This document shows positions 1,334 through 28,443 of a stretch of 32,483 bases of DNA, one piece after another. Source of the DNA: a virus. A model generated the notes under the pieces. It was given only the letters and a program-made list of their open reading frames with translations, made no database searches and was not told where the DNA came from. Position numbers and translations under genes: made by a program. Location of the stretch: positions 1 through 32,483 of IMG/VR virus record IMGVR_UViG_3300049001_000021; one strand, 5' to 3'. Each line of letters opens with the position of its first letter. The first letter of the stretch is position 1.

Positions 1334-1369
1334 TGACACGGCGCGACATCGAACGCCATGCAACGACAC
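1334..1369 (+). promoter_or_regulatory. Operator-like site A: CGACAY repeats, 10-bp period
   Basis: On the plus strand the hexamers TGACAC (1334), CGACAT (1344), CGCCAT (1354) and CGACAC (1364) follow each other at exactly 10-bp steps, in the intergenic stretch before the gene that starts at 1323. The 15-base core GACACGGCGCGACAT is also found at site B (13800-13814). Hexamers on the same helix face suggest cooperative binding of a repressor or activator. The binding protein is unknown. Confidence 0.55.
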
Positions 1370-1381
1370 GCCGACGCGCCG

Positions 1382-1419
1382 CGACGCCCCCCGGTCGAGT
1401 GAGACAGCGGAGGGCGTCG
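1382..1419 (-). terminator. Hairpin terminator after the structural/lysis operon
   Basis: Arms 1382-1393 and 1408-1419 pair over 12 bp with a single mismatch (CGACGCCCCCCG with CGGAGGGCGTCG) around a 14-nt loop. It lies just downstream of the TAG of the papain-like peptidase gene. No U-tract follows, as is common in GC-rich actinobacteria and their phages. Confidence 0.65.
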
Positions 1420-1436
1420 GGTCGTGCGGGGGAGGG

Positions 1437-2156
1437 CTACTCGTCGAGCGAGCGCCCAACCTTGCGGCCGATCGGCACCGCGCACTCGCCGACCTTCGCG
1501 ATCAGCGTGCGCATGGTGTCCTCGGGGACGAACGCGGCGCCGTTGTTGCCGTAGTCGGTGCCCCACGAGTTCACCCACCAGAACCCCGGGCCCTCGCCGT
1601 CGTAGTCCGTCGACCAGCCGACGACGAGCAGGCAGTGCCCGCCGACCTGCTGCCCGCCGACCCGCACGACCCCGCGGTCGTCGGTGGAGTACATGCCGGC
1701 GTGCCACGGGATGCCGAGCACGAGTGGCCCGAGCTGGATCGCGGCGCGCATCTCCTCGACCCCGAACGCCCACCGCCACGAGTCCCACCACCCGAACTCG
1801 CGCCCGACCTTCATGCCGGCGTTGACGCTCGTGCCGCTGTAGCCCTCACCGGGCCACTCGTCGTGACGCTGCGCCCGGTGATACCACTGCGCCGCCATGC
1901 TCGAGGGGGCGTCGACCTCGCCGGCCACCGGGGCGGCGAGCACCTCGGCGACGCAGGCGTGCCCGACACACGAGCCCTCGCGGCCCTGGTCAAGAATCAC
2001 GCCCGGGCGCCACATGACGTCATGCGTCGGGGGGGCCTCGACGAGCTCGACGGCGGCGTACTTCCTCGAGGCGGGGTCGTGGTTCGGCTGCCAGTCGAGC
2101 ACCCGCTGCGGGTTGGCGGCGCGCTTGAGGGGTGCCGACCGGTCGCGCGGCGGCAT
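1437..2156 (-). CDS. Papain-like (family C1) cysteine peptidase, 239 aa
   Basis: The catalytic set of papain is complete. Oxyanion-hole Gln57 and nucleophile Cys63 lie in DQGREGSCVGHA, His174 in VGGHCLLVVGW, and Asn196 in WWVNSWGTDYG. These correspond to the conserved QGxxGSC, GGH and NSWG boxes of C1A peptidases. Length fits a mature catalytic domain, with no signal peptide, inhibitory propeptide or cell-wall domain visible. The start overlaps the amidase stop by one base (TGATG), so the two are translationally coupled, and a hairpin closes the operon just after. The position suggests peptidoglycan cross-bridge cleavage, a virion-borne peptidase or a host-directed protease. The sequence does not decide between them. 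Confidence 0.9.
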   Translation of the reverse strand: MPPRDRSAPLKRAANPQRVLDWQPNHDPASRKYAAVELVEAPPTHDVMWRPGVILDQGREGSCVGHACVAEVLAAPVAGEVDAPSSMAAQWYHRAQRHDEWPGEGYSGTSVNAGMKVGREFGWWDSWRWAFGVEEMRAAIQLGPLVLGIPWHAGMYSTDDRGVVRVGGQQVGGHCLLVVGWSTDYDGEGPGFWWVNSWGTDYGNNGAAFVPEDTMRTLIAKVGECAVPIGRKVGRSLDE

Positions 2157-3226
2157 CAGTCTGCCGCCGGGGTAGCGAGCTCGGCGAACACGTTGCGCAC
2201 CGCGGCCTCGACGACCGCGCCGAGCTGCTCGCCGCCCTCGATGCTCCCGCCGCCGTCGATCTTCGCCTGCACGCCCTCGACGACCGCATCGGCGATCAGG
2301 GGGGCGACAGCCGCAGCGAGCGCCTGTGGTGCGTCGTTCGCGTCGGCCGCAGCGAGCGCCCGCTGCAACGACATCAGCCGCTTGAGCAGGGCGTCGAGCC
2401 CCCACGGGTTCTCGGCGGTCGCGACGTTCGCCGTGACGCGCCTCGCGATCGCCTCGGCGAGCGAGCCGTGTTCCTTGATCAGTGCCTCGTCGGTCGGGGT
2501 GAGGGGCAAGTCGTCCTCCGGGGTGTCGGCGCCGTTCGCGATCGCGACGGCGAGGGCCATGAGCTCGGCGCGGGGGTAGTTGCCGCCGGGGTCGGTGTGC
2601 GTCGTGCCGCCGAGCACCCGCCTGATGTCGTCGTGGGTGCACCACCCGCGGCGCGGGCCCCCGGCGGCGGCGGCGCGAATCTCGTCGTCGGTCGCCCACC
2701 GCAGCGGCAGCGCCCACCGTCGGAAGCAGTCGACGAGATACTCGGCGACCCGGCGCATCTGCCGGCGCCCCTCGGGGGTCGTCCAGTCGGCGAGGGTGAG
2801 GTGTGCGTATCCGGCCTGCTCGACGCCCACGGTGAACCCGTTGGCGCGCGGCCCACAGTGATACGCGACCACGTCATCGGGGAGTAGCCGGATCGTCTCG
2901 GCGGGGTCGATCATGACGGTCGCCGAGGTGGTCGCCTTGGTCGCGAACCAGTTGGCAGCGATCGAGTAGGCGTAGCCGGCGCGCAGCGGCGTCTCGGCGC
3001 TGTGCAGTACCCCGAGGCGGGGTCCGCCGCTCATCGCGCCGCCGTGCGACCGGGCGGCGATCGTGCGGTCGACGATGGCGAACAGCAGTCGATCACCCTC
3101 GAACATCGCGAGGCGCCCGAGCTCGGCCGCTCGGGCGTCGGCGCCGGCCACGACCGCGGCCCAATCGTCCGCGGGTAGCAGGTGGCCGGCGTCGACCGGC
3201 TCGGGGGCGGTCGCGAGCAGGGTCAC
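2156..3226 (-). CDS. Endolysin, N-acetylmuramoyl-L-alanine amidase (Amidase_2 type), 356 aa
   Basis: This enzyme cleaves the lactyl-amide bond between MurNAc and the stem peptide to release progeny. The amidase fold runs from about residue 45 to 220. Likely zinc ligands are His75 (LGVLHSAETP) and His209 with Asp211 (TTHTDPGGNYP). Glu135 in TVGVEQAGYA and His197 in WCTHDDIRR match the conserved active-site region of the family. The last about 130 residues are alanine-rich helices without a recognised peptidoglycan-binding motif, so this may be a new wall-targeting or oligomerisation domain. The GTG start at 3226 overlaps the previous stop (GTGA). The papain-like peptidase follows with a one-base overlap. 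Confidence 0.9.
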   Translation of the reverse strand: MTLLATAPEPVDAGHLLPADDWAAVVAGADARAAELGRLAMFEGDRLLFAIVDRTIAARSHGGAMSGGPRLGVLHSAETPLRAGYAYSIAANWFATKATTSATVMIDPAETIRLLPDDVVAYHCGPRANGFTVGVEQAGYAHLTLADWTTPEGRRQMRRVAEYLVDCFRRWALPLRWATDDEIRAAAAGGPRRGWCTHDDIRRVLGGTTHTDPGGNYPRAELMALAVAIANGADTPEDDLPLTPTDEALIKEHGSLAEAIARRVTANVATAENPWGLDALLKRLMSLQRALAAADANDAPQALAAAVAPLIADAVVEGVQAKIDGGGSIEGGEQLGAVVEAAVRNVFAELATPAAD

Positions 3227-3405
3227 GACTCGCCCTCGTCGGTGACGGTGAGGCGGTACCCGGCGCCGTCGGGCAGGTTCTCGATCAGCGCCCGCACGAG
3301 CTCGTGGTCGCCGCCCGCCTCGACGTACTCGGCGCGCAGCTCGTCGAGGGCGGTCATTGCGTCGGCGTCGGCGACGTCGGCGGGCAGGTCCCGGGTCAGG
3401 GTCAC
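3223..3405 (-). CDS. Hypothetical protein, 60 aa
   Basis: This small acidic protein lies between a minor tail protein and the endolysin, and I do not recognise it. GTG at 3405 is preferred because GAGAGGA lies about 10 nt upstream. A TTG at 3423 that overlaps the previous stop is the alternative and would add six residues. It has a helical core (MTALDELRAEYVEAGGDHEL) and a final strand-like segment (GYRLTVTDEG). Its stop overlaps the amidase start (GTGA), so it may act in tail-tip assembly or lysis timing. Confidence 0.7.
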   Translation of the reverse strand: MTLTRDLPADVADADAMTALDELRAEYVEAGGDHELVRALIENLPDGAGYRLTVTDEGES

Positions 3406-3419
3406 GGGGTGCGGTCCTC

Positions 3420-4088: not shown

Positions 4089-4147
4089 GCGTCGAGTGCC
4101 TCGCCCTCAGTAGTCGATCGGTGCCAGGGTGTCACACCCCGGCGGCA

Positions 4148-5527: not shown

Positions 5528-8349
5528 CGCTTCCGCCAGTCGTCGCCGTTGTGTCGCTCGTACGCCCTGATGTCGGCGACGTGCGCCCGGCCGCGCTCGG
5601 CGCTCGCGACCTGCCGGCGGTCGAGCTCGCCGACCAACTTGAGGTCGAGCTCCACCGTCCGCAGGGCGACGGCGTGCCCGCCCATCGCCGAGGCGAGGGT
5701 GGGGGCGCCGTAGTGCGCCGGGGCGCCCGAGCCGACACTGCCGGCACCGGCCCCCCGCGCCTCGATGACCGCGGTGCGGGTGTTCGCGAGCTGGTCGAGG
5801 TAGGCGTCGACGGCCGGGCCCCCGCGGGTCTCGACCCTGATGATCGCGAGCCGGTCCTTCGCGGCGAGCCCGTCGAGGTAGTTGCCGACCGCCGGACCCC
5901 CGCGGGACTCGACCCTGATGAGGGCGAGGCGTCGGGCATCGGCGAGCCCCTCGAGGTACGCCTTCACCGCGGGGCCCCCGCGCGACTCGACCCTGATGAG
6001 GGCGAAGCGGGCCACGTCGGCGAGCCCGTCGAGGTACGCGTTCACCGCGGGCCCGCCGCGGGACTCGACGGCGATCGTCGTCTCGCGGTCGCCCGTGGTC
6101 TCGTCGAGCTTGCCCTTCGCCTCATCGGCGCCCGTGAGGGTCAGTATCGCCTCGATGTCACCCTGGGCCTTCGCGGTCTCGAGGTCGGTGATCAGGTCAG
6201 TGATCTGCTGCCGGGCGGCGTCGGTGAGTCCGGGCTGATCGAGCGAGCCCCGCAGGGCGTCGATCGTGCCCTGCGCCCGTAGCTGCGCCTCGCGCATTTC
6301 GTTGACGATCTCGCCGTTCGCCCGCGCCGACGCGACGTAGGAATCCGCGACCGTGCCGGCGTAGTTGAGCACCGAACCGATCACCCTGTTCGTCGCCTCG
6401 TCGACCTCATTCCACGGGGTGGCGAGATCGTCGACCGTGCCCTTCGCCTCGTGCACGGCCTGCTGCATCCCGATGAGCGCGTCGTTCTGCCCGAGCTGCG
6501 CGTTGTAGAGGTCGAGGGTCGACTGCACGGCACCGTCGGTCACCGCCCGGTAGGCGTCGATCGCGGCGGTCGCGAGGTCGCTGGTGCGGGTCTCGGCTGC
6601 CTGCGCCTCGGCGGCAGCGGTGATGGCGTCGGCGAACTCGCGGCCCTCGGTGGTGCCCTCGGCGATGAGATCCTTGAGCCCCCGGGTCGCGAGCTGCGCC
6701 GTCTCACCCTGCGCGCCGAACTCGCCGAGGGCCTCGCTCGCCTCGTCGATGCCCTTGGAGAATCCCTCGGCCGCGACCTCACTCTCGCCGAACCCGTTGG
6801 CGAGAGATCCGAACCCGAGGGGGTCGCCGAGGAACGTCGAGTCGTCGACCACGTCGGCCGCGGTGCTGTTGCGGGCGGCGGCGACCTGTTCCCAGTACCC
6901 CGCCTCGTCGACGAGCTGCCGCCCGAGCTCCCTCGAGCTCGCCGCCATGTCGCCGTACTTCTTGCGGGCTGCCTCGCTCTCGCGGGCTGCCTCGGCGGTC
7001 GACTCGGCGAATGCCTCGGCGCCCTCCTGCACGAAGTAGTAGGCGGTGCCGGCGCCGATCAGGGCGACGCCGAGGGGTCCCCCGGCGAGCGCCATCATCC
7101 CGGACGCGGCGCCGCGGGCGCCTGCGAACGACGCCCCGAGCAGCCCGTTCGCGGCGATCGCACGGCCTGCGGCGGCGGTGTACCCGCCCGCGGTCGCGGT
7201 CACCCGGGCGAGCGAGCCGGCCAACAGTCCGCCCTCGAGGGTGGTGCGGCGCTGTGCGACCCCGAGCGCGATCGAGGCGAGCGCGGCGGCGGCGATCGGG
7301 CCCGGCACTGCACCGATCACGTCGGCGAGAGTCTGGCCGGCGTCGACGAGCCCCGTGATCGCCGGGACGACGGCGCGCCCGAGGGTGCGGGCGAGCTCCC
7401 CCGAGGTCATGCTGAACTCGAGCATCGCGGCGTCATACTCCCGCGACAGGGCGACATCGTCCTCGGTGAACGGGGTCCCGATCGCCTCGAGTGCCTCCTT
7501 CACGTCGACGCCGCTGTTCAGCAGGCGCGAGAGCTGCTTGTACCCCTCCTCGCCGAACATCGAGAACCCGAGCCGGTTGCGCTCGGTGGCGTCGGGGATC
7601 TTCTGCAACTCGCTCAGGGTGTCGACGAGCGTGCTCGTCCAGTTCACCGTGCCGTCGGCGTTGTGCTGCAACTCGGTGCCGAGCTGCGTGAGCCCGTCTT
7701 TCGTCTTCCCGGCGAACTCGGCCTGAATCTCGATCAGGTCATCGAGCTCGAGTCCGACCGCCCCGACGAGCCCCAGGAACGCGCCCGCCTGCTCGACGGT
7801 CGCGTTCATCGAGGTCGCCATCGCCTGCGCGCCCCGGGCGCCGCCGATGAATCCCGACACGGCGTCGGTCGCCCAATCGGCGAGGCTGATCCCGCCGACG
7901 AGCCCCCCCGCGGTGGCGGCGAGCCCCTTCAGGTCGATGTTCATCCGACGGCTCGCGGCGCCGGCCTCGGCCTGAGTGCGGATGACGTCGGCGTTCGCCT
8001 GCACCTGCTCGTCGGTGGCCTGCGTGAGCTCACGCGTCGCGAGGTGCTGCCCCCGGCGGGCCTTCTCGACGGCCACCTCGGCGCGGGCGAGCTGTGACCC
8101 CGAGGCGGTGCCCTTCTCGCGGAGCTCGTTCAGTCGCGTCTCAGCGACCCGCACGGCCCCGGCGGCGTCGGCCTCTTTCGCCCGCGCCTGTGCGACCCGG
8201 TCGGCGGCAGCCGAGATACTCGTTCCGGTCTTCCGGGCGGCGGTGTCGGCGTCCTTCGCCGAGCCCGAGAGGCGGCGGAACACGGTGTCGGCACCGTTGT
8301 CCGTCGCCTCGACGATGAGCTGCAATCGCTCGGCGAGACTGCCCGCCAC
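5524..8349 (-). CDS. Tape measure protein, 941 aa
   Basis: This is the largest gene of the genome, placed directly after the frameshifted tail chaperone. It sets tail length and is ejected during infection. It has an N-terminal coiled-coil rich region (about 50-130), hydrophobic segments near 145-175 and 350-450 (PGPIAAAALASIALGVA, LAGGPLGVALIGAGTAYYF), then long helices. The C-terminus carries four 24-26-residue repeats (762-863) with the core RGGPAVxAYLxGLA. By the usual rule of about 0.15 nm per residue, the tail would be near 140 nm. The GTG start at 8349 lies just 4 bases past the chaperone stop. Confidence 0.95.
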   Translation of the reverse strand: MAGSLAERLQLIVEATDNGADTVFRRLSGSAKDADTAARKTGTSISAAADRVAQARAKEADAAGAVRVAETRLNELREKGTASGSQLARAEVAVEKARRGQHLATRELTQATDEQVQANADVIRTQAEAGAASRRMNIDLKGLAATAGGLVGGISLADWATDAVSGFIGGARGAQAMATSMNATVEQAGAFLGLVGAVGLELDDLIEIQAEFAGKTKDGLTQLGTELQHNADGTVNWTSTLVDTLSELQKIPDATERNRLGFSMFGEEGYKQLSRLLNSGVDVKEALEAIGTPFTEDDVALSREYDAAMLEFSMTSGELARTLGRAVVPAITGLVDAGQTLADVIGAVPGPIAAAALASIALGVAQRRTTLEGGLLAGSLARVTATAGGYTAAAGRAIAANGLLGASFAGARGAASGMMALAGGPLGVALIGAGTAYYFVQEGAEAFAESTAEAARESEAARKKYGDMAASSRELGRQLVDEAGYWEQVAAARNSTAADVVDDSTFLGDPLGFGSLANGFGESEVAAEGFSKGIDEASEALGEFGAQGETAQLATRGLKDLIAEGTTEGREFADAITAAAEAQAAETRTSDLATAAIDAYRAVTDGAVQSTLDLYNAQLGQNDALIGMQQAVHEAKGTVDDLATPWNEVDEATNRVIGSVLNYAGTVADSYVASARANGEIVNEMREAQLRAQGTIDALRGSLDQPGLTDAARQQITDLITDLETAKAQGDIEAILTLTGADEAKGKLDETTGDRETTIAVESRGGPAVNAYLDGLADVARFALIRVESRGGPAVKAYLEGLADARRLALIRVESRGGPAVGNYLDGLAAKDRLAIIRVETRGGPAVDAYLDQLANTRTAVIEARGAGAGSVGSGAPAHYGAPTLASAMGGHAVALRTVELDLKLVGELDRRQVASAERGRAHVADIRAYERHNGDDWRKR
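5761..6066 (-). repeat. Four tandem 72-78-bp repeats in the tape measure gene
   Basis: Residues 762-787, 788-813, 814-839 and 840-863 of the tape measure protein share E(S/T)RGGPAV, then xAYLxGLA, then LAIIRV or similar. The DNA repeats follow with a 78-bp period. Such units usually arise by slippage or unequal recombination and change tail length in fixed steps. Confidence 0.85.
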
Positions 8350-9368: not shown

Positions 9369-9938
9369 TCAGGCGGGCGCGTCGGTGACGATGCCCGCGC
9401 CCGTGATGAGGCGGGTCGAGCCGGTCGAGCCGAACAGGATGTCGGGCTTGCCCTTGCAGTCGAACGACACCGTGTCGGTGAGGTTCGCCCGCGGGGCGCC
9501 ACCGAACCCGGCGGCGTGCAGGTTGATGCGCCCGACCGCCCGCGGCGGCTCGACACCGTCGCGCAGGGACAGCAGGAAAAACGCTTCCTTGGCGTCGTTC
9601 TCGTACAGGAACGCGCTGATGCCGTCGCGGACGGTGGCGTCCTGAAGGAACTCGAGGTCGAGGGCGTAGCTCGTGAGCTGCGCCTGCGCCGTGTTCGAGC
9701 CCGGGGCGCAGAACGTCGCCGGGGTCTCGGTGTTCGTCGACTGCTTCGAGGCGGTGAGCTTGCCGCTCGTGATCTGGCACCCGAAGTTCTTGCCCCCCTC
9801 GTAGTCGGCGAGGGCGGCGGTCGCGGCGGTCTTCCCGCCCGGCGCCATCCACGAGTCGGTGTAGCCGACGGCGAGACGGTCGACGACGGCGAGGGCGACC
9901 TGCCCCTCGGTGATCTGGAACACGACGGGGGGGGTCAT
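9369..9938 (-). CDS. Major tail (tube) protein, 189 aa
   Basis: This protein polymerises into the tail tube around the tape measure. Its size, all-beta character and place before the chaperone and tape measure genes fit. Recognisable family segments are LTSYALDLEFLQD, ISAFLYENDAKEAFFLLSL and a C-terminal DTVSFDCKGKPDIL. The start ATG 9938 overlaps the preceding stop (ATGA). No Ig-like C-terminal extension is present. Confidence 0.88.
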   Translation of the reverse strand: MTPPVVFQITEGQVALAVVDRLAVGYTDSWMAPGGKTAATAALADYEGGKNFGCQITSGKLTASKQSTNTETPATFCAPGSNTAQAQLTSYALDLEFLQDATVRDGISAFLYENDAKEAFFLLSLRDGVEPPRAVGRINLHAAGFGGAPRANLTDTVSFDCKGKPDILFGSTGSTRLITGAGIVTDAPA

Positions 9939-10405
9939 GGCGTCTCCTGTGAGGTGTCGTCGCTGCGAGTGAGCGCTTCGGGGCAGAGCGTACGGGCGGC
10001 GAGTGTGATCTGTGCTGAGAACGTGACAGCGCGTGTCGTCGGCCCGCCGATGTCGATGTCGTCGGGACCTGCGGTGAGCAGCTCGACGAGCGAACCGTTC
10101 GGCATGGTGGTCGCGGTGAACAGCTCCCACCCGGCGGCGGTCACGGCGTCGATGCGGGCGACCTGCCCGCGGTCATTGCCGTCGACGGCGATGACGATCG
10201 GGAACGTCGCGATGACGCCGTGCCCCTGCCGGCTCACGGTCGCGGCGTCGACCCACCCGCCGGGGGTGACGACGGTGAGGGATGGGTACTTGCTCGCCCG
10301 CTCTTTCGACCAGCCGACGACGCCGAACACGCGCTCGAGGGCGGCGTGCAGCAGTGTGCGGGCGTCGTCGAGGGCGTTCGGCGGGGGCTCGGTCGGCGAG
10401 GTCAT
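9935..10405 (-). CDS. Putative tail terminator protein, 156 aa
   Basis: It lies directly before the tail tube gene and after the head-tail adaptor, the standard place of the terminator that caps the growing tube and joins it to the head. The N-terminus is helical (ALDDARTLLHAALERVFGVV) and the rest is mainly beta (GVIATFPIVIAVDGN, TRAVTFSAQITLAAR), as in this family. It is coupled on both sides by 4-nt overlaps. Identification is by position and fold type. Confidence 0.6.
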   Translation of the reverse strand: MTSPTEPPPNALDDARTLLHAALERVFGVVGWSKERASKYPSLTVVTPGGWVDAATVSRQGHGVIATFPIVIAVDGNDRGQVARIDAVTAAGWELFTATTMPNGSLVELLTAGPDDIDIGGPTTRAVTFSAQITLAARTLCPEALTRSDDTSQETP

Positions 10406-12782: not shown

Positions 12783-13415
12783 CTACGTGGTCGCCGGGGT
12801 AATGGGCACCACGTACGCCGCGTAGCCCCGCCGGTACTGCCTCGTGCGGGTGAGGCGGCGCTGCCTGTCGAGGTCACTCATCGTGCCCGTCGCGCTGCCG
12901 CCGGTCCAGCCCGTGACCTCGGCGAGCTCGAGGGCGGTGAGCCCTCGAGCACCCTGCTCGCCGGCGAGCTGCACCGCCCGATCGCGCTTGCTCGTGGCCG
13001 GCGGGGGCTCGGCGGCGGGCGGCGTGTCGGTCGCGCGACGGGCCCGACGCTCGGCGAGGTCGACCACCCCCGCGACCTCGAGGTCGTGCTGCACGGTGCC
13101 GACACTCACGCCGAGGTGGTCGGCGACGCGACGGCGGCTCATGCCCTGCCCACCCTCGGCGAGCGGGCGGGTGAGCCCGACGACGAGCTGCACGCGGTCG
13201 GGCACCTCGATGCGGATGCCCCGCAGGTCGCCGAACTCGGCGGCGGTGTACGCCGGCCACGACTCGAAGCCGAGCGCCTCGTGTGCCCGACCGTGGAACA
13301 GCTCGACGAGCAGCGCCGAGCCCTGATCGAGGATCTTGCGGCAGCGGTCGGTCTTCGCGCGGGCGCCGTGTCGGGTGAGGATCGTCGGCGCCCGGCCGTC
13401 GGCGAGGGCGCTCAT
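12783..13415 (-). CDS. Double helix-turn-helix DNA-binding protein, 210 aa
   Basis: Likely transcription regulator or ParB-like DNA-binding protein. The first half has ESWPAYTAAEFGDLRG, then the recognition unit MSRRRVADHLGVSVGTVQHD (about 101-120), a clear HTH preceded by a helix as in ParB-type domains. After a proline/arginine-rich linker there is a second winged-helix unit (LTALELAEVTGWTGGSATGT), ending in a beta wing (RQYRRGYAAYVV). No ParA gene is seen, so plasmid-style partition is not supported. It is the last gene of a three-gene unit with its own control region. It is a good candidate to bind the CGACAY repeats or the dyad at 13831-13866. The ATG at 13415 overlaps the previous stop. 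Confidence 0.85.
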   Translation of the reverse strand: MSALADGRAPTILTRHGARAKTDRCRKILDQGSALLVELFHGRAHEALGFESWPAYTAAEFGDLRGIRIEVPDRVQLVVGLTRPLAEGGQGMSRRRVADHLGVSVGTVQHDLEVAGVVDLAERRARRATDTPPAAEPPPATSKRDRAVQLAGEQGARGLTALELAEVTGWTGGSATGTMSDLDRQRRLTRTRQYRRGYAAYVVPITPATT

Positions 13416-13615
13416 CGTCCGTGCCCCCGTCGGCAGACCGCGCACACGCCCGCAGTCACCCGGTCGCCGTCGCCCATCGCGCCGCCGCAGCGGGGGCAGG
13501 GGGCGGGGGGCCCGGCGGCGAGCTCGATCGCGAGCTCGGCGAGGGCTGCCCGCTGGTCGGGGGTCGCGTTCATCGCCCGCTCGAGCTTGCGGAGCTGCAC
13601 GTCGAAGGCGCTCAC
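13412..13615 (-). CDS. Zinc-ribbon microprotein, 67 aa
   Basis: Two Cys pairs (CPRCGG and CAVC, 16 residues apart) form a C4 zinc ribbon at the C-terminus. The N-terminal half is a helix (FDVQLRKLERAMNATPDQ, AALAELAIELA). GTG 13615 overlaps the preceding stop and its TGA overlaps the HTH gene, so it is co-translated with the putative regulator. It may be a partner or modulator of it. Function unknown. Confidence 0.75.
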   Translation of the reverse strand: MSAFDVQLRKLERAMNATPDQRAALAELAIELAAGPPAPCPRCGGAMGDGDRVTAGVCAVCRRGHGR

Positions 13616-13761
13616 AGCGACGCCCCCGCCTCGTCGAGCACGGAGACCTCGCGCAGCGTGCCGTCGCTCTCGCGGATCGCGAGGGCGTCGCGGTAGAACG
13701 CGCCGTCGATCAGGCGCCAGTGCTGAAACCATCGGACGATTCGGTACCCAGGGGTGTTCAT
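13612..13761 (-). CDS. Hypothetical protein, 49 aa
   Basis: First gene of the cassette. The sequence (GYRIVRWFQHWRLIDGAFY, then an acidic end) suggests a small beta-rich fold. ATG 13761 is only about six bases downstream of a -10-like GATGAT box that pairs with TTGAGT at 17 bp, so the message may be leaderless or nearly so. An upstream extension of the open frame to 13869 would run through the operator repeats and the dyad, and is rejected. Confidence 0.65.
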   Translation of the reverse strand: MNTPGYRIVRWFQHWRLIDGAFYRDALAIRESDGTLREVSVLDEAGASL

Positions 13762-13788
13762 GCCCTCATCATCGGCACATTCGGCCCG
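13762..13788 (-). promoter_or_regulatory. Candidate promoter of the HTH cassette
   Basis: On the sense strand TTGAGT (its last bases reach into the adjoining repeats), a 17-bp spacer and GATGAT lie just before ATG 13761. This matches a sigma70-type promoter at four of six bases in each box. The -35 end touches the CGACAY operator-like repeats, as expected for a regulated promoter. Confidence 0.45.
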
Positions 13789-13824
13789 CGACTCAACCCG
13801 ACACGGCGCGACATCTTGCGACAT
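13789..13824 (+). promoter_or_regulatory. Operator-like site B: four CGACNY repeats, 10-bp period
   Basis: Hexamers CGACTC (13789), CGACAC (13799), CGACAT (13809) and CGACAT (13819) follow at exact 10-bp steps. The middle shares the 15-mer GACACGGCGCGACAT with site A. It lies between the cassette's promoter-like boxes and a large dyad. Confidence 0.6.
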
Positions 13825-13830
13825 CTCACC

Positions 13831-13866
13831 CGTTCGGGGGTGTTCAGGACTGAACGCCACCGAACG
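13831..13866. promoter_or_regulatory. 36-bp dyad in the HTH cassette control region
   Basis: Two 17-base arms (13831-13847 and 13850-13866) match at 15 of 17 positions around a 2-bp centre. The inner part GTTCAGGACTGAAC and the outer CGTTCGG/CCGAACG are perfect. The tiny centre favours a protein-binding site over an RNA hairpin. It could be the operator of a dimeric regulator, perhaps the 210-aa HTH protein encoded in the same unit. Confidence 0.6.
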
Positions 13867-16124: not shown

Positions 16125-16567
16125 TCGAACGTCGCCCCGTCGGCGGTGCGGTGCACCCGGGCACCGGACTCGGGCCCGTGCCCGTCGCGCAGCGAGCACT
16201 CGAGCCACCGCCCGCGGCTGCCGTAGGGGTCGCCGACGTAGTGCACACGGTGCGGGCAGCGCGGCAGCGCCTCGCGGGACTGCACGCCGTCGAGGGCGGC
16301 GCGCACGAGGCAGTCTTTCGCCTCGAGCAGCTTCCGCAGCCCGGCCGACAGCTCGGGCCCGTCGGGCAGCTCGGCGACCATCGCGTGAGCGAGCTCGCCG
16401 ATCGGCCGGCTCACCACTTGCAGGTGCTCGGGAAGGTGGCCGTACTCGAACCACCGCAGCAGCCCCGTCGTCGCGGGGTGCCTCGCTGCACTCGGCCCGG
16501 CCGTCGGCTCGATCCTGCCGCCGTCGTCGGGGTGTCCGCCGCCCGTTGTCACCTGAACCCCTCTCAT
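16121..16567 (-). CDS. Acb2/Tad1-like hairpin protein with Cys/His tail, 148 aa
   Basis: The central region has WFEYGHLPEHLQVVSRPI, then two helices containing GLRKLLEAKDCLVRAAL. This family is common in actinophages. The pattern of two helices with a final KLxEAxxxxxxA box resembles the helical hairpin of the cyclic-nucleotide sponges Acb2 and Tad1, which would give an anti-CBASS or anti-Thoeris role; that is a hypothesis only. The C-terminus adds a possible metal site (CPHRVHYVGD, ECSLRDGHG). ATG 16567 keeps the 4-nt overlap with the terminase stop. GTG 16552, which has AGAGGGG just upstream, is an alternative start. Its place between terminase and portal is usual. Confidence 0.7.
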   Translation of the reverse strand: MRGVQVTTGGGHPDDGGRIEPTAGPSAARHPATTGLLRWFEYGHLPEHLQVVSRPIGELAHAMVAELPDGPELSAGLRKLLEAKDCLVRAALDGVQSREALPRCPHRVHYVGDPYGSRGRWLECSLRDGHGPESGARVHRTADGATFE

Positions 16568-18663
16568 GCCCGGTCGCGGTGCGCCCGCTGCACAACCCAC
16601 GACAGGCAGCGCAGCAGGGCGGTCGACTCGGTGCCCGTGAGCAGGATGCCATTACCACCCGGCGCGGGGCGAACACGAGCGGTAACCACCGCGCGTGTCG
16701 CGTCCGACCCGCCGTCGTGCGCGACCTGCCCCAATCGCACGAGCTCGCGCAGCAGCGGCAGCGCCGTGCGGGTCTCAGCACTCCCCGCGGGGTCGATCGG
16801 CACCTCGACACCCTCGAGCTCGGTGTCATCGACCAGCGAGGCGCCGACGAGCATCACGGCGTCGTCGACCGCCTCGGCGGTGTCCTGCGCCCAATCGACC
16901 GCTTCACGGCGGGTGCCGAACCGATGCCCGCCGATCACGACCCGCCCGTCGGTGGCGAGCGCCGCCGCGACCGCGACCGCCCCCTCGCCCCGGTCGTCCT
17001 CGACGCCCACGAACAGCGCGGCGTCGTCGGCCGGCGACGCGTCGGGGTCGAGACACGCCTGCCACGCCTGGTCGGTGGTGAACGGCTCGTCCTTCACCCG
17101 CCCCTCGAGGTCGAGGCGACGCGGCCAACGGTTGAGCCACTGCGCATCGAAGCTCGCGATCGGGTCGGGCTCGTCGGGGTCGAGCGACTCGCCCCGCAGC
17201 ACCTTCGCGTACGCCTTCGCGACGATGCGCTCGCGCGCCGCCGACCAGTGCGGCGAGGCGGCCCGCCACCCCCGGGGGTCGCCGCGGTCGATGTCGTCGG
17301 GCGTCGACCACTCGAGCAGTAGTCGGGCGACCGGCTCGAACAGCTCAGCGAGCGCATCGGCCCGCCGCTCGAGCATGAGCGCCGTTGCGAGGCGGTGCGC
17401 GGTCGACCAGAGCCCGAGCTGCGGCGACTCCTGCTCGACCATCGTCGGATCAATGCCCTCGTCGACCGCGACCGCGGGAACGTCCCACCCCTCATCAACG
17501 AGCGCGTTCCCGGCAGCGACGCCGTAAACGGCGTGCTTGGCCTTGATGACCCACCTCGACCCCTCCATGTGGGGTGCCGTCGATAGGCCCGGCTCGAGGT
17601 TGTTCCGCGACGGCGTGAGCCCGTTCGCTTCGCCCCATGACTGCGCGGGCTTGAGCACCTCGCGCACGATGCCGAGGTCGCGCCCCGTGTGCAGCACGGT
17701 CTGCGTGCCCCATCGCTCGGGCCCGTGCAGCATCCGCCACAGGGCCAGAACCCGCAGCAGCCACGACTTCCCGCCCTGTCGGCTGATCGTGCCGATGTAT
17801 TCCGACCAGACGAGCACCCCGTCGGCGTCGTGCTCGAGGATCCGGTACGCCGCCAGCCGTTGCCACCACCGGAGCTGTCGGGGCGCGTGCATCCGGGCGA
17901 ACAGTGCGACCACCTCGGGCCCGTACGTGCCGACCGCCCTCGGGTGCGGCAGCGTCATGAACCGCGGCCAGACCGCGTCCGAGGGGACTTCCCGCAGCTC
18001 AGACAGCCACGGGGCTCCATCCCACACCGGATCGTCGGGCCCGGGGGTGTTACGCACCGTGAGGGGTGCGGGGTCCAATGTCACGGAAGCATCACGACCG
18101 CCGGTCAGTTCACTACGGGCGTCCATGCCCCCTCGCCCCTGACCTGCACGTTTACCCCCGGCACCCCCAGAGAGAGAGACCTTGTTCATCGCGGGGGGCA
18201 TATGGCGAGCACCCCCTAAAGAACCGGGGTCGGTGACAGAGCGTGACATCGTGACGAGCGTCCGTGCCACCTCCATCGCCGCGCGCTCGTCGTTGCCTTG
18301 CACGCCGCCGTCGCTGTCGCTGTGCGGCTTGCACTCCGCGCGCAGGTTCGAGCTGCGGTCGCAGCCGCCGAGTCGCCGTCCGAGTACGTGTCCGGCCACG
18401 TTCGCCGGTCGACCGCACACCCCCTGCCCCTCGGGGTCGGGTACCTGGCAGCGGTAGCTGTCCCGCTTGAGCACGCTCACCCGCAGTCGGCGCCAGGCGG
18501 CGGGGTCGTAGTCGATCAAGTGGCGGGTTACCCGGGGGTGGGGGTTACCGCACCCGCAGGGGATGGGCAGCCCATCACTGCCACCTCGCATCATCGCCTC
18601 GATCACCGCGGCGATGACGCCGTGCTCGTCATCGGTCTCGCTCGAGGTCGTCGGGGTGGTCAC
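16564..18663 (-). CDS. HNH endonuclease-large terminase fusion, 699 aa
   Basis: One open frame joins two proteins that are normally separate. Residues about 30-125 are an HNH nuclease: Cys72/Cys83 and Cys111, His92 in NVAGHVLGRRLGG, Asn106 and His114. Residues about 200-699 are the terminase motor: Walker A SRQGGKS (294-300), Walker B AVDEG (399-403), and an RNase H-like nuclease starting FVGVEDDRGEG. GTG 18663 follows GAGAGGAA and overlaps the preceding stop, as in the rest of the operon. ATG 18201 (residue 155), with AGGGGGTG about eight bases upstream, could give a 545-aa terminase by internal initiation. The linker (150-195) is glycine-rich. HNH partners of terminases are known to be needed for packaging cuts. 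No small terminase gene was found. Confidence 0.85.
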   Translation of the reverse strand: MTTPTTSSETDDEHGVIAAVIEAMMRGGSDGLPIPCGCGNPHPRVTRHLIDYDPAAWRRLRVSVLKRDSYRCQVPDPEGQGVCGRPANVAGHVLGRRLGGCDRSSNLRAECKPHSDSDGGVQGNDERAAMEVARTLVTMSRSVTDPGSLGGARHMPPAMNKVSLSGGAGGKRAGQGRGGMDARSELTGGRDASVTLDPAPLTVRNTPGPDDPVWDGAPWLSELREVPSDAVWPRFMTLPHPRAVGTYGPEVVALFARMHAPRQLRWWQRLAAYRILEHDADGVLVWSEYIGTISRQGGKSWLLRVLALWRMLHGPERWGTQTVLHTGRDLGIVREVLKPAQSWGEANGLTPSRNNLEPGLSTAPHMEGSRWVIKAKHAVYGVAAGNALVDEGWDVPAVAVDEGIDPTMVEQESPQLGLWSTAHRLATALMLERRADALAELFEPVARLLLEWSTPDDIDRGDPRGWRAASPHWSAARERIVAKAYAKVLRGESLDPDEPDPIASFDAQWLNRWPRRLDLEGRVKDEPFTTDQAWQACLDPDASPADDAALFVGVEDDRGEGAVAVAAALATDGRVVIGGHRFGTRREAVDWAQDTAEAVDDAVMLVGASLVDDTELEGVEVPIDPAGSAETRTALPLLRELVRLGQVAHDGGSDATRAVVTARVRPAPGGNGILLTGTESTALLRCLSWVVQRAHRDRA
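18136..18155. repeat. 20-bp motif shared with the iteron array
   Basis: CCCCTGACCTGCACGTTTAC here differs at one position from 19113-19132, and its first part recurs at 19023-19033. This copy lies in the linker coding region of the HNH-terminase gene, just before an in-frame ATG at 18126. Confidence 0.7.
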
Positions 18664-18935
18664 GGGTGGTTCCTCTCGGTGCAGTCGTGCAGGGCGTGCA
18701 CGGTGGTCCGTGGTCGGGTGCCGGCGGGCTGGTGCCTGATCTGGAACGGCGAGCGGTGCGTGATCACGTCGGCCCCCTGGTGATGGGTCATGGTGCTGAT
18801 GCCGGCCAGTGCCGCGAGCAGCTCCCCCTCGGCGTCGAGGGGGTCGACCTCGAGGGCCACGTCGATCCCTCGCTCGCTGCGTCCGGCGATGGTCTCGACC
18901 TTGCATCGGGGGCACGGCCGGTGGTCGGTGCTCAC
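18660..18935 (-). CDS. Zinc-finger-like hypothetical protein, 91 aa
   Basis: The N-terminus HRPCPRCKVETIAG has one Cys pair. The middle is acidic and helical (EVDPLDAEGELLAALAG) and the end is rich in His and Arg (RTTVHALHDCTERNHP), with one more Cys. It is coupled by GTGA to the genes on both sides and stands directly before the HNH-terminase. By position it might assist packaging in place of a small terminase, but its sequence shows no TerS-like HTH. Confidence 0.65.
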   Translation of the reverse strand: MSTDHRPCPRCKVETIAGRSERGIDVALEVDPLDAEGELLAALAGISTMTHHQGADVITHRSPFQIRHQPAGTRPRTTVHALHDCTERNHP

Positions 18936-22220: not shown

Positions 22221-22417
22221 TGCTCGGCCCGCCACGGGACGCCGGCGGCAACGAACCGTGCGGCGGTGATGCCCGTGCGCACGGCCTCGGGCATCGAGTC
22301 GAAGCGGCCGACGATCACGTCGCCGAGGGTCTCGCCGGGCGGGGTGACGAGCTCGGCCCGCCACCGCCCCGACGACGGCTCGCGGCGGACGTTGACCCGG
22401 CACTCGACGGGGCTCAT
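22217..22417 (-). CDS. Hypothetical protein, 66 aa
   Basis: A beta-rich N-terminus (ECRVNVRREPSSGRWRAELV) leads to GETLGDVIVGRFDSM and a final helix (PEAVRTGITAARFVAAG). It resembles small HicB-like or RNase H-like antitoxin folds in outline, but this is too weak to name. ATG 22417 overlaps the upstream stop (ATGA). Confidence 0.68.
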   Translation of the reverse strand: MSPVECRVNVRREPSSGRWRAELVTPPGETLGDVIVGRFDSMPEAVRTGITAARFVAAGVPWRAEQ

Positions 22418-22590
22418 GCCGCCACCGCAGCGGGCTCGTACTCGTCGGGCCCGAGCTCGCGCAGGGTGCGCCCGTGGTCGTCGTCGCAGGGGCACAGCAG
22501 GGCGAGCCCGAGGCTCGCGAGGTCGTGCAGGTAGGCGGCGCTGTCGCGGACGCGATGCAACAGCCATGGTGGGATCGAGGTGAGTCTCAC
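22414..22590 (-). CDS. Hypothetical protein, 58 aa; first gene of the long coupled operon
   Basis: GTG 22590 is placed behind GGGAGGAA at a good distance, so this start is well supported. Sequence: a helix (WLLHRVRDSAAYLHDLASLG) with a Cys pair (LLCPCDDDHGR) and an acidic end. It opens the run of 20 coupled genes to 13958 and follows the large hairpin/operator region 22634-22681. Function unknown. Confidence 0.72.
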   Translation of the reverse strand: MRLTSIPPWLLHRVRDSAAYLHDLASLGLALLCPCDDDHGRTLRELGPDEYEPAAVAA

Positions 22591-22629: not shown

Positions 22630-22633
22630 AATG

Positions 22634-22673
22634 CACGACACCACCGACGGTGGCGACCGTCGGTGATGTCGTG
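22634..22673 (-). terminator. Large hairpin (18-bp arms) after the replication operon
   Basis: Arms 22634-22651 and 22656-22673 pair with a single mismatch around the loop GGCG. The stem ends carry CGACAC and ATGTCG, so it contains the CGACAY hexamer in inverted form. It can act as a terminator for the operon ending at 22696 and/or as a protein-binding site in the leader of the operon starting at 22590. Confidence 0.65.
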
Positions 22674-22681
22674 GCGTGTCG
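22666..22681 (-). promoter_or_regulatory. Operator-like site C: two CGACAY repeats beside a TATAAC box
   Basis: On the sense strand CGACAC, GCCA and CGACAT follow directly after TATAAC (22680-22685 region), the closest -10-like box in the window (five of six bases of TATAAT). No clear -35 box is present. If used, this promoter would drive the 20-gene operon, with the operator at its transcription start. Confidence 0.5.
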
Positions 22682-22695
22682 TTATAGGGCGGCGG

Positions 22696-23376
22696 TCATC
22701 GGAGACAGCCGCCCGCGTGGCCGTCGGGCAGGACGCACGGGGTGTTGGCGCCGTAGGACGGCGCGGAACACGGCTCCTCGGCGTGCGGGGCAGGCGCGGG
22801 AGAGGCGAGAGCGGCGGCGGTCGGGCAGGGCCATTGCGCCGGGTGGAGGCGGGGCCCGTCCCTGTCGGCGCACGACGAGCAGACCGGCGCGGACAACCCC
22901 CAGCAGCCGCACGAGCGAGCCTCGTCGGGGTCGTCCGCGTGAATGCCGCCGAGGCAGTCCGGGCAGGCGGGCACGCGCCCGGGGGTGTTGACCATCGGCC
23001 GGTGCAGCGCCTCGACCCGCTTGACGACAGCCTCCTCGTCGGTGGTGTGCTGCCCGACCAAGGCGGCGCGGGTGGGGCAGGGGAAAGTCCAGCCGCATCC
23101 GCCGCACATGCCGTGGGCACCGGCCGTGTGCAGCACCTCGACCCGCTTGACGGCTTCCTCCGCCGGGCTCGCGGGCATCGCGGCGGCCTGGACACGGGCC
23201 TCCACCTCGGCGGCGATCAGCGGGAGGAGGGCGTCGAGGTACGCAGTGAGCGTCGAGTCGATGCCCGGGATGCTCTGGACCGTCTCGACGTCCTCCTCCA
23301 CGTCATCGGCCCACAACTTCACCAACGCCTCGGCGAGCTGGTCGCGGAAGCGGGGATCGGTCACGTCGGCGGTCAT
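22696..23376 (-). CDS. Cysteine-rich protein with internal duplication, 226 aa
   Basis: Two copies of a unit with EEAVxKRVExLH and, later, WxxxCPTxxAL occur at about residues 73-108 and 114-190. The second contains an extra insertion with eight cysteines (ACPDCLGG, SCGCWG, VCSSCADRDG). The C-terminus has CSAPSYGANTPCVLPDGHAG, which carries the C-x5-H-x-G-x-C motif found in other genes here. The N-terminal 65 residues are helical. Units of this kind (RVExLHxP... WPCPT) are common in actinophage hypothetical proteins. ATG 23376 overlaps the previous stop. Probably a zinc protein, role unknown. Confidence 0.75.
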   Translation of the reverse strand: MTADVTDPRFRDQLAEALVKLWADDVEEDVETVQSIPGIDSTLTAYLDALLPLIAAEVEARVQAAAMPASPAEEAVKRVEVLHTAGAHGMCGGCGWTFPCPTRAALVGQHTTDEEAVVKRVEALHRPMVNTPGRVPACPDCLGGIHADDPDEARSCGCWGLSAPVCSSCADRDGPRLHPAQWPCPTAAALASPAPAPHAEEPCSAPSYGANTPCVLPDGHAGGCLR

Positions 23377-23816
23377 CGCTCGACCCGCGTGTTCCCGAGA
23401 CGGCCAAGGATCGAGCATCGGCGGCACGGGTCGCAGTCCTCGATCCGCTCGGGAGTGCAGGCGCACGGCTGCTCATCGACGAACCGAGCAGCGGCGGTGA
23501 TCGCGTTCGAGAGGATGAACGCTTCGCCATCGTCGCCGTCGGGCGGGTTGAGCAGGTCGATCACAAGGTCGCGAAGCGTCTCGTAATCGTCCGCGTAGTC
23601 CTCGGTCACGGCCTGCGGTCGCTGCCCGGCCGGGGGCGGGGTGACGGCGTACCCGCGGCGCCTGAGCTCGCCGACGATCGCCTCGAGCAGTACGCCCTCG
23701 GCGAGCGCCGTGCGCACGTGCATCGTCTCGCGCACCGCGCCGTCGACGAGCACCTGCACCTCGCCGAGCTCGCGGTCGTACTTGATCGTCTCGTCGATGC
23801 GGAACGTCGGGATCAT
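23373..23816 (-). CDS. Hypothetical protein with C-terminal Cys cluster, 147 aa
   Basis: The N-terminal part has strands (GEVQVLVDGAVRETMHV) and a helix (LAEGVLLEAIVGELRRRG). The centre is acidic (TEDYADDYETLRDLVIDLL). The last about 30 residues contain CACTPERIEDCDPCRRC, a compact five-cysteine site well known in actinophage proteins but without known function. Coupled by ATGA to the helicase gene upstream and to the next gene. Confidence 0.72.
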   Translation of the reverse strand: MIPTFRIDETIKYDRELGEVQVLVDGAVRETMHVRTALAEGVLLEAIVGELRRRGYAVTPPPAGQRPQAVTEDYADDYETLRDLVIDLLNPPDGDDGEAFILSNAITAAARFVDEQPCACTPERIEDCDPCRRCSILGRLGNTRVER

Positions 23817-26907: not shown

Positions 26908-26932
26908 TTCTCCCAGGGGGTGCGTGCGTTGT

Positions 26933-26960
26933 GCGGCGACCGGGGCCCGGTGGTCGCCGC
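26933..26960 (-). terminator. Hairpin terminator after the membrane-protein pair
   Basis: Perfect 9-bp stem GCGGCGACC/GGTCGCCGC (26933-26941 with 26952-26960) around 10 bases, seven bases past the TAG of the holin-like gene. No U-tract. Confidence 0.6.
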
Positions 26961-26967
26961 CGGGCGA

Positions 26968-27393
26968 CTAGTTCGTCGGGATCAGGTGCACCCCCTCGTG
27001 TCCGAGCTCGAGCAGGCAGCGTGACCCGCCGCGGATATCGCGGCAGCGGGCACCGTTCGCGTCGGGGGTCGCGTGCAGGGCGTCACGGGCGCCGCGGGCG
27101 TACTCGTCGACAGAGTGCGCCTGCCACTCGGTGGCTTCGCGCGTCCACTCGGCGTTGAGCCGGGTGACCGTGGCCGGCGACCATGCGACCTTGCGGGCGG
27201 CCTCGACACCGCTGATGCCGAGCAGCGCCGTCCCGGCGGCGATCCACAGGGCGGCGCGCTCGCCGTCGATCACGCCGTACCCGACGAGCAGGGCGACGAC
27301 GGCGAGCAGGACGGGGTACAGGGCGAGGCGAACGGGCGAGAGCTCGCGCCACCTCGCGATGAGTCCCTCGGTCGGCTCGGCGTGATCAGCCAC
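26968..27393 (-). CDS. Holin-like membrane protein with C-terminal zinc-type motif, 141 aa
   Basis: Two membrane helices (about 22-41, LALYPVLLAVVALLVGYGVI; 47-66, AALWIAAGTALLGISGVEAA) are followed by a polar region, a layout common to putative actinophage holins. Downstream helices (WTREATEWQAHSVDEYARGA) precede CRDIRGGSRC and then LLELGHEGVHL, a C-x5-H-x-G-x-H motif not expected in a holin. GTG 27393 is preceded by AGGAG with good spacing. It overlaps the upstream membrane gene by eight bases. The pair may permeabilise the membrane at lysis although they lie far from the endolysin gene. Confidence 0.65.
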   Translation of the reverse strand: MADHAEPTEGLIARWRELSPVRLALYPVLLAVVALLVGYGVIDGERAALWIAAGTALLGISGVEAARKVAWSPATVTRLNAEWTREATEWQAHSVDEYARGARDALHATPDANGARCRDIRGGSRCLLELGHEGVHLIPTN

Positions 27394-27811
27394 GGCGGTG
27401 TGCTCCTGTCTGCTGCTGCGGTCGGGTGTCGGGGGCGATGGGTGCGGCGGAGCGACGGGCGAACCGCCGGGCCTCGACGTCGAGCCATTCGGCCGGGTCG
27501 GGGGTAAGGCGGGGTGGCGGTCCGAGCGCCTCGATGCGCCGCCTGATGTCGTCGGCGTCCGTGCCGAGCGCGACGGCGAGTAGTACGCCCTGATCCCAGG
27601 CGCGGTGCTCGGCGTCGAGGCGCTCACGGGCGAGCTCGCGGCGCTGCCCCTCGTCGAACGCTTTCTCGAGGCGGCCGATCCATCGCTCGACGGATTCGTC
27701 GAGCGTGGCGACCGCCGGGGGGCGGCGTAGCAGCAGGATGAGCACGAGCACGAATGTCCCGGCGGACGTGCCCGCTCCCATCACCGCCTCGACGGTGGGC
27801 CCGTCGATCAC
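27386..27811 (-). CDS. Membrane-anchored protein with long soluble tail, 141 aa
   Basis: A single membrane helix near the N-terminus (AGTFVLVLILLL, followed by RRPP) is followed by about 100 charged helical residues (SVERWIGRLEKAFDEGQRRE, LARERLDAEHRAWDQG), so the bulk is probably cytoplasmic and coiled. GTG 27811 is used, but it has no clear ribosome site. ATG 27781 with GAGG just upstream would shorten it by 10 residues. It precedes the holin-like gene with an overlap and the two form their own unit between hairpins. Function unknown; holin partner possible. Confidence 0.65.
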   Translation of the reverse strand: MIDGPTVEAVMGAGTSAGTFVLVLILLLRRPPAVATLDESVERWIGRLEKAFDEGQRRELARERLDAEHRAWDQGVLLAVALGTDADDIRRRIEALGPPPRLTPDPAEWLDVEARRFARRSAAPIAPDTRPQQQTGAHRRG

Positions 27812-27830
27812 TGGGGGCCCACGGGGCGGC

Positions 27831-27866
27831 GGGTGGTCACCGACCGATTGTGGCCGGTGACCACCC
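27831..27866 (-). terminator. Hairpin terminator after the SSB-like gene
   Basis: Perfect 12-bp stem GGGTGGTCACCG/CGGTGACCACCC (27831-27842 with 27855-27866), eight bases past the TAG. Confidence 0.75.
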
Positions 27867-27873
27867 GTAACGC

Positions 27874-28302
27874 CTAGCTGCGCTCCCAGGGCGGCGCGTC
27901 GCTGCCGCCACCGACGGCAGCAGTTGCCGGTTCGGGGGCGCTGGTCATGGCACGAACGGCGAGCTCGTTCTGCTCGGGCGTGGCGGCGTCGAGGGTGTAG
28001 GGCACGCTCTTGCCGTTGCGCTTGACGCCCGGCTCGCCCTGAAACACGCCGACGACGGTGCGCCCGGCCTTGCGCTTGAGCTGCCCGAACAGCACCTTGC
28101 CGAACAGCATCGCGTCGACGTACGTGTCGCCGATGGTGCCGTCGCGGTTGATCACGCTCACGTCGGCGCGGATCACGTCGGCGGGCCCGTTCTCGGTCTG
28201 CACGCCGAGCTCGGTGCGGTCGACCTTGATCACGAGCAGGTCGCCGACGTGGTCGGCGTTGGTGAACAGGTCGCCGCTGCCGGCGTCCGGTGAGTCGAAC
28301 AT
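27874..28302 (-). CDS. Single-stranded DNA-binding-like protein, 142 aa
   Basis: It belongs to a group of actinophage proteins annotated as ssDNA-binding: HVGDLLVIKVDRTELGV, then VIRADVSVINRDG, YVDAMLFGKVLFGQLKRKAG and VVGVFQGEPG, which read as successive strands of an OB-like fold. The C-terminal tail is flexible and ends DAPPWERS. ATG 28302 follows GAAAGG. It forms a single-gene unit, with a leader containing two hairpins and an operator-like site, which suggests its level is tuned. It protects ssDNA at the fork and in recombination with the nuclease encoded next to it. Confidence 0.72.
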   Translation of the reverse strand: MFDSPDAGSGDLFTNADHVGDLLVIKVDRTELGVQTENGPADVIRADVSVINRDGTIGDTYVDAMLFGKVLFGQLKRKAGRTVVGVFQGEPGVKRNGKSVPYTLDAATPEQNELAVRAMTSAPEPATAAVGGGSDAPPWERS

Positions 28303-28335
28303 GGGTGGGGCCTTTCTCTCAGGGGGTGTGGATCG

Positions 28336-28367
28336 ACGGCCGGTGTGTTCTGGGTCTCACCGGCCGT
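28336..28367 (-). promoter_or_regulatory. Hairpin in the leader of the SSB-like gene
   Basis: Perfect 10-bp stem ACGGCCGGTG/CACCGGCCGT (28336-28345 with 28358-28367). It lies between a terminator-like hairpin and the ribosome site, so it would be in the 5' leader and could stabilise the message or attenuate it. Confidence 0.5.
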
Positions 28368-28397
28368 GCCCGGGGCGTTGCTGAGAGTATCGCGGGC

Positions 28398-28417
28398 CAC
28401 CCCCATTCTTGGGGGTG
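28398..28417 (-). terminator. Hairpin terminator after the PD-(D/E)XK nuclease gene
   Basis: Perfect 8-bp stem CACCCCCA/TGGGGGTG (28398-28405 with 28410-28417) with loop TTCT, about 45 bp past the nuclease stop. Adjacent operator-like site D begins at its edge. Confidence 0.65.
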
Positions 28418-28443
28418 CTGTCGCGGCGTGTCGCGCGATGTCG
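28418..28443 (-). promoter_or_regulatory. Operator-like site D: three CGACAN repeats, 10-bp period
   Basis: On the sense strand CGACAT, CGACAC and CGACAG follow at exact 10-bp steps (plus-strand starts 28438, 28428 and 28418). The spacers CGCG and GCCG resemble those of the other sites. It precedes the SSB-like gene. Confidence 0.55.

Follow-up and report, generated by a model that had tools for sequence, protein, structure and literature searches.

Which protein, if any, reads the four short sets of phased repeats found between the genes of a phage genome? The DNA in question is IMG/VR virus record IMGVR_UViG_3300049001_000021 (32,483 bases, G+C 72.8%), and "the window" below means this whole stretch. 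An earlier note had described CGACAY direct repeats with a 10-base-pair (bp) period at four intergenic sites and had proposed that they form the operator set of one phage-encoded regulator. These sites are referred to here as arrays A, B, C, and D. Sequence comparison suggests that the arrays are probably operators of the phage's own 59-amino-acid (aa) protein, a MerR/BldC/Xis-like winged helix-turn-helix (HTH) protein, likely timing the expression of gene modules.

Sequence and statistics of the arrays

The four arrays are real, non-coding, and non-random, and they are biologically meaningful. All four were found where they had been described (Table 1), and no array base lies inside any called gene. 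The complementary strand reads (A/G/T)TGTCG once per 10 bp. TGTC runs along the transcribed (minus) strand at A and B and along the opposite strand at C and D. On the plus strand, the units of A are TGACAC, CGACAT, CGCCAT, and CGACAC: the count of four holds, and two of them, rather than one as first reported, are off consensus. Those of B are CGACTC, CGACAC, CGACAT, and CGACAT, and one of the three units of D is CGACAG. The 15-mer said to be common to two sites, GACACGGCGCGACAT, is indeed present in both A and B.

A scan for CGACAY-N4-CGACAY with at most one mismatch yielded 10 matches in the window as compared to 1.99 expected. Nine of the 10 fell in A to D, and none of 100 shuffled sequences reached 10 matches. 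At a period of 10, CGACAT was the top hexamer in the window. Three-unit TGTC sites with at most one mismatch occurred five times at this period, all in A, B, and D (0.05 in simulation), and such sites were absent from the window at periods of 7 to 9 and 11 to 15. We also scored the window with a site matrix of 25 units, all taken from other phages and none from the window. This matrix ranked A to D first for two units and for three units, a result that tests where the window's sites lie and not where the motif came from. The three-unit scores of A to D were 20.0–29.1; the next independent site scored 9.7 and the simulated background maximum averaged 12.5.

Recurrence in relatives

The comparison with relatives, likewise proposed in the earlier note, used IMG/VR records G001, G002, and G003, whose capsid proteins are 66–68% identical to that of the window, and the fragment L024, whose portal protein is ~76% identical over the aligned part. 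G003 is the one near-complete relative; the other three are fragments. Searching these for the CGACAY pair returned just two matches, each with one mismatch, and the relaxed pattern TGTC-N6-TGTC was used instead. Array A recurred in G003 and array B in G003, G001, L024, and G002; C and D did not recur. More specifically, the counterpart of A at the same locus of G003 (27788) reads TGTC-N6-TGAC-N6-TGTC. Array B reads TGTC-N6-TGTC-N6-TGTC in G003 and G001 and has four units in L024. In G002, it is TGGC-N6-TGGC-N6-TGGC with the 10-bp period unchanged.

Putative promoters at arrays A and B

The -35-like hexamer of a putative promoter of the capsid/tail operon overlaps the last unit of array B. The layout TTGAGT/TTTAGT-17-GATNNT-6-ATG is kept in the window, G003, G001, and L024, with the -35-like part within or against the array, and its -10 part alone is kept in G002. 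A strict sigma-70 consensus scan called no promoter at B. The pattern [CG]ATN[ACT]T-N6-ATG, a -10-like element exactly six bases before an ATG, occurred only at A and B in the window, where each array lies just upstream of the hexamer. In G003, too, it was confined to A and B, and G001 and G002 each had a single occurrence. As the pattern was derived from the A and B sites themselves, the informative part is its rarity elsewhere.

Further elements adjoin array B. Dyads similar to the GC-rich dyad beside it lie beside B in L024, G003, and G001. The second dyad has versions TGTCCAGTTCTGGACA and TTTTCAGAACTGAAAA in relatives, and occurs once per genome in the window, G003 (13911), G001 (3651), and G002 (5239), as well as upstream of B in L024. 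Its core, CAG-NN-CTG, is conserved and its arms co-vary (TGTCCAGTTCTGGACA, GTTCAGTCCTGAAC, TTTTCAGAACTGAAAA); this dyad may be the operator of a second regulator. A hairpin, CAGCTCCCCCCGTGGCTG, is present upstream of array B in the window, G003, G001, and G002, and has a C-rich loop that resembles the anti-Shine-Dalgarno sequence. The hairpin is exactly repeated in several otherwise dissimilar viral contigs (L014, L016, L017, L019, and L021), and Rfam gave no match at its position in the window. Scanning with it was abandoned as a route to relatives because it retrieved mostly dissimilar contigs.

The candidate binding protein

The best candidate for binding the arrays, one that comparison supports well, is the 59-aa protein encoded in the operon directly downstream of array A. 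It matched the Pfam family MerR_1 with 31.3 bits (cut-off, 21.6); its HTH_17 match was below the cut-off of that family. The protein comprises a winged HTH domain only, lacking a coiled-coil or effector domain, with predicted elements H-H-E-H. Homologues are encoded by G003 and by Arthrobacter phages. A profile built from an alignment of seven homologues placed the BldC–DNA structures 6amk and 6ama first in the PDB, other MerR proteins next, and the excisionase (Xis) of mycobacteriophage Pukovnik (4j2n) lower. A single-sequence fold model with a predicted local distance difference test (pLDDT) score of 74 had a template-modelling score of ~0.7 to BldC, Xis, and RdfS, but also to MerR N-domains. 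The match to phrog_66 ("excisionase and transcriptional regulator") was weak (E = 1.3e-5). The protein likely shares ancestry with excisionases, which is compatible with a present role in transcription.

The 210-aa frame that the earlier note had offered as an HTH protein (242–874, minus strand) gave no HTH match and no family match, and it is read in a different frame from the 59-aa gene that it overlaps. It was rejected as the regulator and is a miscalled frame, the plausible part of which is a 93-aa probable membrane protein (242–523).

Arrays and MerR-like genes in other phages

The Arthrobacter phages Kels and Decurro encode homologues, gp19 and gp22 respectively, that are 44–46% identical to the 59-aa protein over the aligned part, and both carry an array in the intergenic region before the MerR-like gene. 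In Kels, it reads CGACAC-N4-CGCCAT-N4-CGACAC, with the same middle unit, CGCCAT, as occurs in array A; in Decurro, it is TGTC-N6-TGTC-N6-TGCC. When all listed window proteins were compared with these two genomes using tblastn, only the MerR-like protein matched clearly (E = 1e-10 and 9e-8). The next best was the window's tail protein (9369–10130) against Kels 5647–5982, inside the annotated major tail gene (E = 0.001), and weaker still was the terminase open reading frame (ORF) against the Decurro terminase (E = 0.011). These two matches are plausibly remote virion homologies, and we therefore describe Kels and Decurro as dissimilar to the window rather than wholly unrelated to it.

In a reverse test, the array pattern alone served to collect at least 120 viral loci. 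Most of the loci listed seem to be chance matches or tandem repeats, and many of these are in low-GC contigs. Among the loci listed there were five MerR-like ORFs, three of which lay 141, 28, and 13 bases from the array; the probability of at least three lying that near under random placement was 0.0016 among these loci. Scanning with the MerR alignment as a profile was rejected, the alignment being too diverse; a narrower alignment retrieved two loci, neither with an array under the tested pattern.

Two loci have further features. In L154 (4059–5111), a MerR-like gene and a CGACAY array lie between ORFs judged by eye to be portal-like and head-protease-like, so that here, too, the neighbours are structural genes. 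In L079, ~2 kb (1635–3404) hold a tRNA-Lys gene, a MerR-like gene, an integrase-like ORF, and an XRE-like gene whose start is overlapped by a CGACAT array. It is possible, judging from this arrangement, that the L079 array serves both an attachment (att) site and a repressor promoter.

Genome context

The window has a direct terminal repeat of 127 bases, giving ~32.36 kb if the genome is circular or terminally redundant. Nearly all called genes are on the minus strand, and by our gene calls at least 91% of the genome is coding. Family searches identified an endolysin, tape measure, major tail and head proteins, head protease, portal, terminase, RusA, helicase, primase, holin, exonuclease, and DNA methyltransferase. 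Neither the window nor G003 had a family match to a tyrosine integrase or serine recombinase, and a search for a cI-type repressor via HTH_3 returned sub-threshold matches only. Megablast of window bases 1–25000 against phage records gave no match. The exonuclease, helicase, and full portal retrieved no viral relatives as queries, and a capsid alignment retrieved none from bacterial genomes. Rfam gave a single weak match, with a score under the gathering score.

Four leftward modules are delimited by the arrays: regulator/methyltransferase/exonuclease; replication; RusA to head protease; and capsid to lysis. The hexamer beyond array D, GATACT, is the same as the -10 element of B in L024. The 172-aa protein that begins the A operon had no NCBIfam match. 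Before array A, the ORF at 1437–2156 (minus strand) matches Peptidase_C1 (papain-like) at the curated cut-off and is 66% conserved in G003. Elsewhere, the N-terminal part of the terminase ORF (16564–18915, minus strand) also matches an HNH endonuclease, suggesting a fused or overlapping HNH gene, and the tape measure gene has internal direct repeats with 78-base spacing at 5777–6069.

Table 1. Arrays, putative promoter elements, dyads, and associated genes in the window
Feature	Coordinates	Strand	Description
59-aa single-domain MerR/HTH_17-type winged HTH protein	564–743	-	Proposed array binder; in the A operon
172-aa protein	805–1323	-	Begins the A operon; start placed according to the A promoter
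-10-like CATGAT + 6 nucleotides (nt) + ATG	1321–1335	-	Probable leaderless promoter/start of gene 805–1323
Array A	1334–1369	-	GTGTCG-N4-ATGGCG-N4-ATGTCG-N4-GTGTCA, 10-bp period; directly upstream of the operon with the MerR-like gene
220-aa HTH protein	12783–13445	-	In the B operon; rival candidate binder; weak HTH matches; homologues in G001, G002, G003
49-aa leaderless ORF	13612–13761	-	First gene of the B operon
Putative B promoter	13759–13796	-	TTGAGT (13791–13796), 17-nt spacer, GATGAT (13768–13773), 6 nt, ATG (13759–13761)
Array B	13789–13824	-	ATGTCG-N4-ATGTCG-N4-GTGTCG-N4-GAGTCG; upstream of the capsid/tail operon
GC-rich dyad CACCCGTTCGGGGGTG	13827–13842	.	Adjoins array B
Second dyad GTTCAGGACTGAAC	13842–13855	.	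Upstream of array B
Dyad CACCGACGGTGGCGACCGTCGGTG	22642–22665	.	Adjoins array C
Array C	22666–22681	+	ATGTCG-N4-GTGTCG (two units); between genes 22696–23466 and 22414–22590
-10-like GATACT	28386–28391	-	Downstream of array D; leads to the gene at 28302
Dyad/terminator-like hairpin CACCCCCATTCTTGGGGGTG	28398–28417	.	Adjoins array D
Array D	28418–28443	+	CTGTCG-N4-GTGTCG-N4-ATGTCG (three units); between the exonuclease gene (ends 28461) and gene 27874–28302

Comparison with known systems

The layout of the arrays resembles that of excisionase operators, which are direct repeats about one turn apart bound cooperatively head to tail (PMC7498355). Apl regulates promoters through hexamer direct repeats 10–11 bp apart (PMC7498355). 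As with Apl of phage 186 and Cox of P2-like phages, several hexamer direct repeats spaced by ~10 bp lie over phage promoters, here putative, and there is a small HTH protein, here the predicted binder. The window differs in that neither it nor G003 has an integrase or resolvase match and in that the sites lie at four module borders, including that of the capsid operon. Xis of Pukovnik, whose binding sites are tandem repeats spaced by one turn (cited in PMC7498355), is a winged HTH protein matched by profile and, at an E value of ~0.02, by fold; unlike the proposed regulator, it acts at the phage attachment site (attP) with an integrase.

BldC of Streptomyces also binds direct repeats as head-to-tail oligomers, and smeA-sffA has four repeats one turn apart (PMC5859096). 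Like the 59-aa protein, it is a single MerR-like winged HTH without a coiled coil or effector domain, and it was the best profile match in the PDB. However, it is a host developmental regulator that prefers AT-rich AATT units in 9-bp repeats (PMC5859096), whereas the phage arrays repeat TGTCG every 10 bp. The MerR-like HTH proteins of Decurrovirus (Arthrobacter cluster AN) are 39–44% identical in the alignment and have the same 10-bp CGACA/TGTCG arrays around the gene. These are 15-kb phages with a divergent XRE-type partner gene, and most other window proteins have no significant match in them. The papers searched contained no description of such operators.

The analogy drawn in the earlier note, to multi-site repressors of other actinophages, fits poorly. 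The stoperators of cluster A mycobacteriophages are similar in that one phage regulator acts at many sites genome-wide, some of them between genes, but the repressor binds as a monomer, with two DNA-binding domains, to single 13-bp asymmetric sites (PMC9283540). The 13-bp consensus was not clearly enriched in the window, with 22 matches at no more than three mismatches as compared to 14 expected; none had fewer than two mismatches and none was at A to D. The arrays are not a stoperator system.

Proposed mechanism and alternatives

We propose that each TGTCG unit would take one protomer of the 59-aa protein and that adjacent protomers would associate head to tail along the same face of the double helix; an array of two to four units would thereby carry a cooperative, DNA-bending filament. 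At A, this filament would cover the promoter of the regulator's own operon, resulting in autoregulation. At B, it would cover the -35 region of the capsid/tail operon promoter, and at C and D, it would lie upstream of the RusA/packaging and replication modules. Jointly, these effects would determine when each of the four leftward modules is expressed relative to the others during lytic infection. The division of the genome by the arrays suggests timing control; we infer that the modules are separate transcripts. The sequences themselves show the arrays, where they lie outside genes, the recurrence of A and B, the promoter geometry, and the association with MerR-like genes; binding, oligomerization, sign, and timing are inferred. 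Repression by occlusion is favoured at A and B because the array units overlap the -35 region, and proteins of this kind can also activate, as RdfS does at intS (PMC11963761).

Several observations weigh against this proposal. The training sites of the matrix were first found by their likeness to the window motif, and the ranking is thus not fully independent. Arrays C and D have no counterpart in G003 or G001, the relatives that cover those regions, and at B the array is phased differently relative to the -10 element in the window and in G003. MerR_1 had no match in G001, G002, or L024, all of them fragments, and phage EricDab has a homologue of the 59-aa protein without such an array. In two of the three near loci of the reverse test, L146 and L154, the MerR-like gene has the array on its 3' side instead of upstream. 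Finally, the best Foldseek hit of the single-sequence model (pLDDT 74) was SoxR with an E value of 0.0067; BldC and Xis were at ~0.02, and none was below 0.001. The idea of one operator set for a phage-encoded regulator is supported by its confinement to non-coding module borders, the recurrence of A and B, and a best candidate regulator in the 59-aa protein; with C and D absent from the relatives, conservation extends to half of the set.

A different phage protein could bind the arrays, leaving another role for the MerR-like protein. The 220-aa protein is the contender: its gene closely follows array B, it matches HTH families weakly and has homologues in three relatives, and it diverges faster than the capsid protein, as might be expected if specificity shifts (TGTC to TGGC in G002). 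Nevertheless, its predicted HTH stretch, LGVSKSLVADDRK, is identical in G001, G002, and G003 despite TGGC in G002; Kels and Decurro carry arrays without a homologue of it (best tblastn E, 0.49); and array A at the MerR-like operon and the association in the reverse test would go unexplained. We consider this assignment unlikely. The last two points also bear on a host regulator of direct repeats, either an OmpR/PhoB-type response regulator or host BldC, that would place the phage under host control. The array is located at the MerR-like operon of the phage itself in both the window and G003 and accompanies MerR-like genes across dissimilar phages as well as in the reverse test, and host BldC prefers AATT units, not TGTCG. 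Some response regulators do bind direct repeats (PMC5859096) and a phage could exploit them, yet the chance that one does so here seems slim.

Because no integrase was found, the arrays have the look of operators through which an Apl/Cox/BldC-type oligomer would control transcription, and not of excision sites. Two observations speak for attP excisionase sites, or remnants of these in a decayed lysogeny module: four of 80 scanned viral loci with similar arrays lie within 300 bp of a tRNA gene versus 0.67 expected, and L079 has a MerR-like gene and an array together with a tRNA gene and ORFs resembling integrase and XRE genes. The window, however, has four separate sites rather than one, and A and B are promoter-linked and in the same places in relatives; we regard this reading as very improbable. 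Iteron origins can have direct repeats with helical phasing, and array D is near replication genes. The four short arrays are dispersed, however, and in relatives two of them are fused to promoters, those of the regulator operon and the capsid operon; replication iterons or partition sites have the barest of chances, although no search aimed at a Rep-type iteron protein or ParB was made.

Implications

Returning to the 59-aa protein as the binder, a broader interpretation is tentative and on balance doubtful: an excisionase-like protein of 59 aa would have taken on overall control of timing in a lytic phage, with arrays at four module borders, an operator that drifted from TGTC to TGGC while keeping its period and position, and a protein–array pair that occurs in dissimilar phages. 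If operators of this protein are what the arrays are, a very small protein could be enough for actinophages without an integrase to time their modules, and its operator would be recognizable in raw sequence. The "MerR-like HTH" gene class, annotated in many sequenced Arthrobacter phages, would be linked to concrete target sites. The change from TGTC to TGGC at a fixed period and place would then be a natural case of operator drift for studying specificity change in oligomeric winged-HTH proteins.

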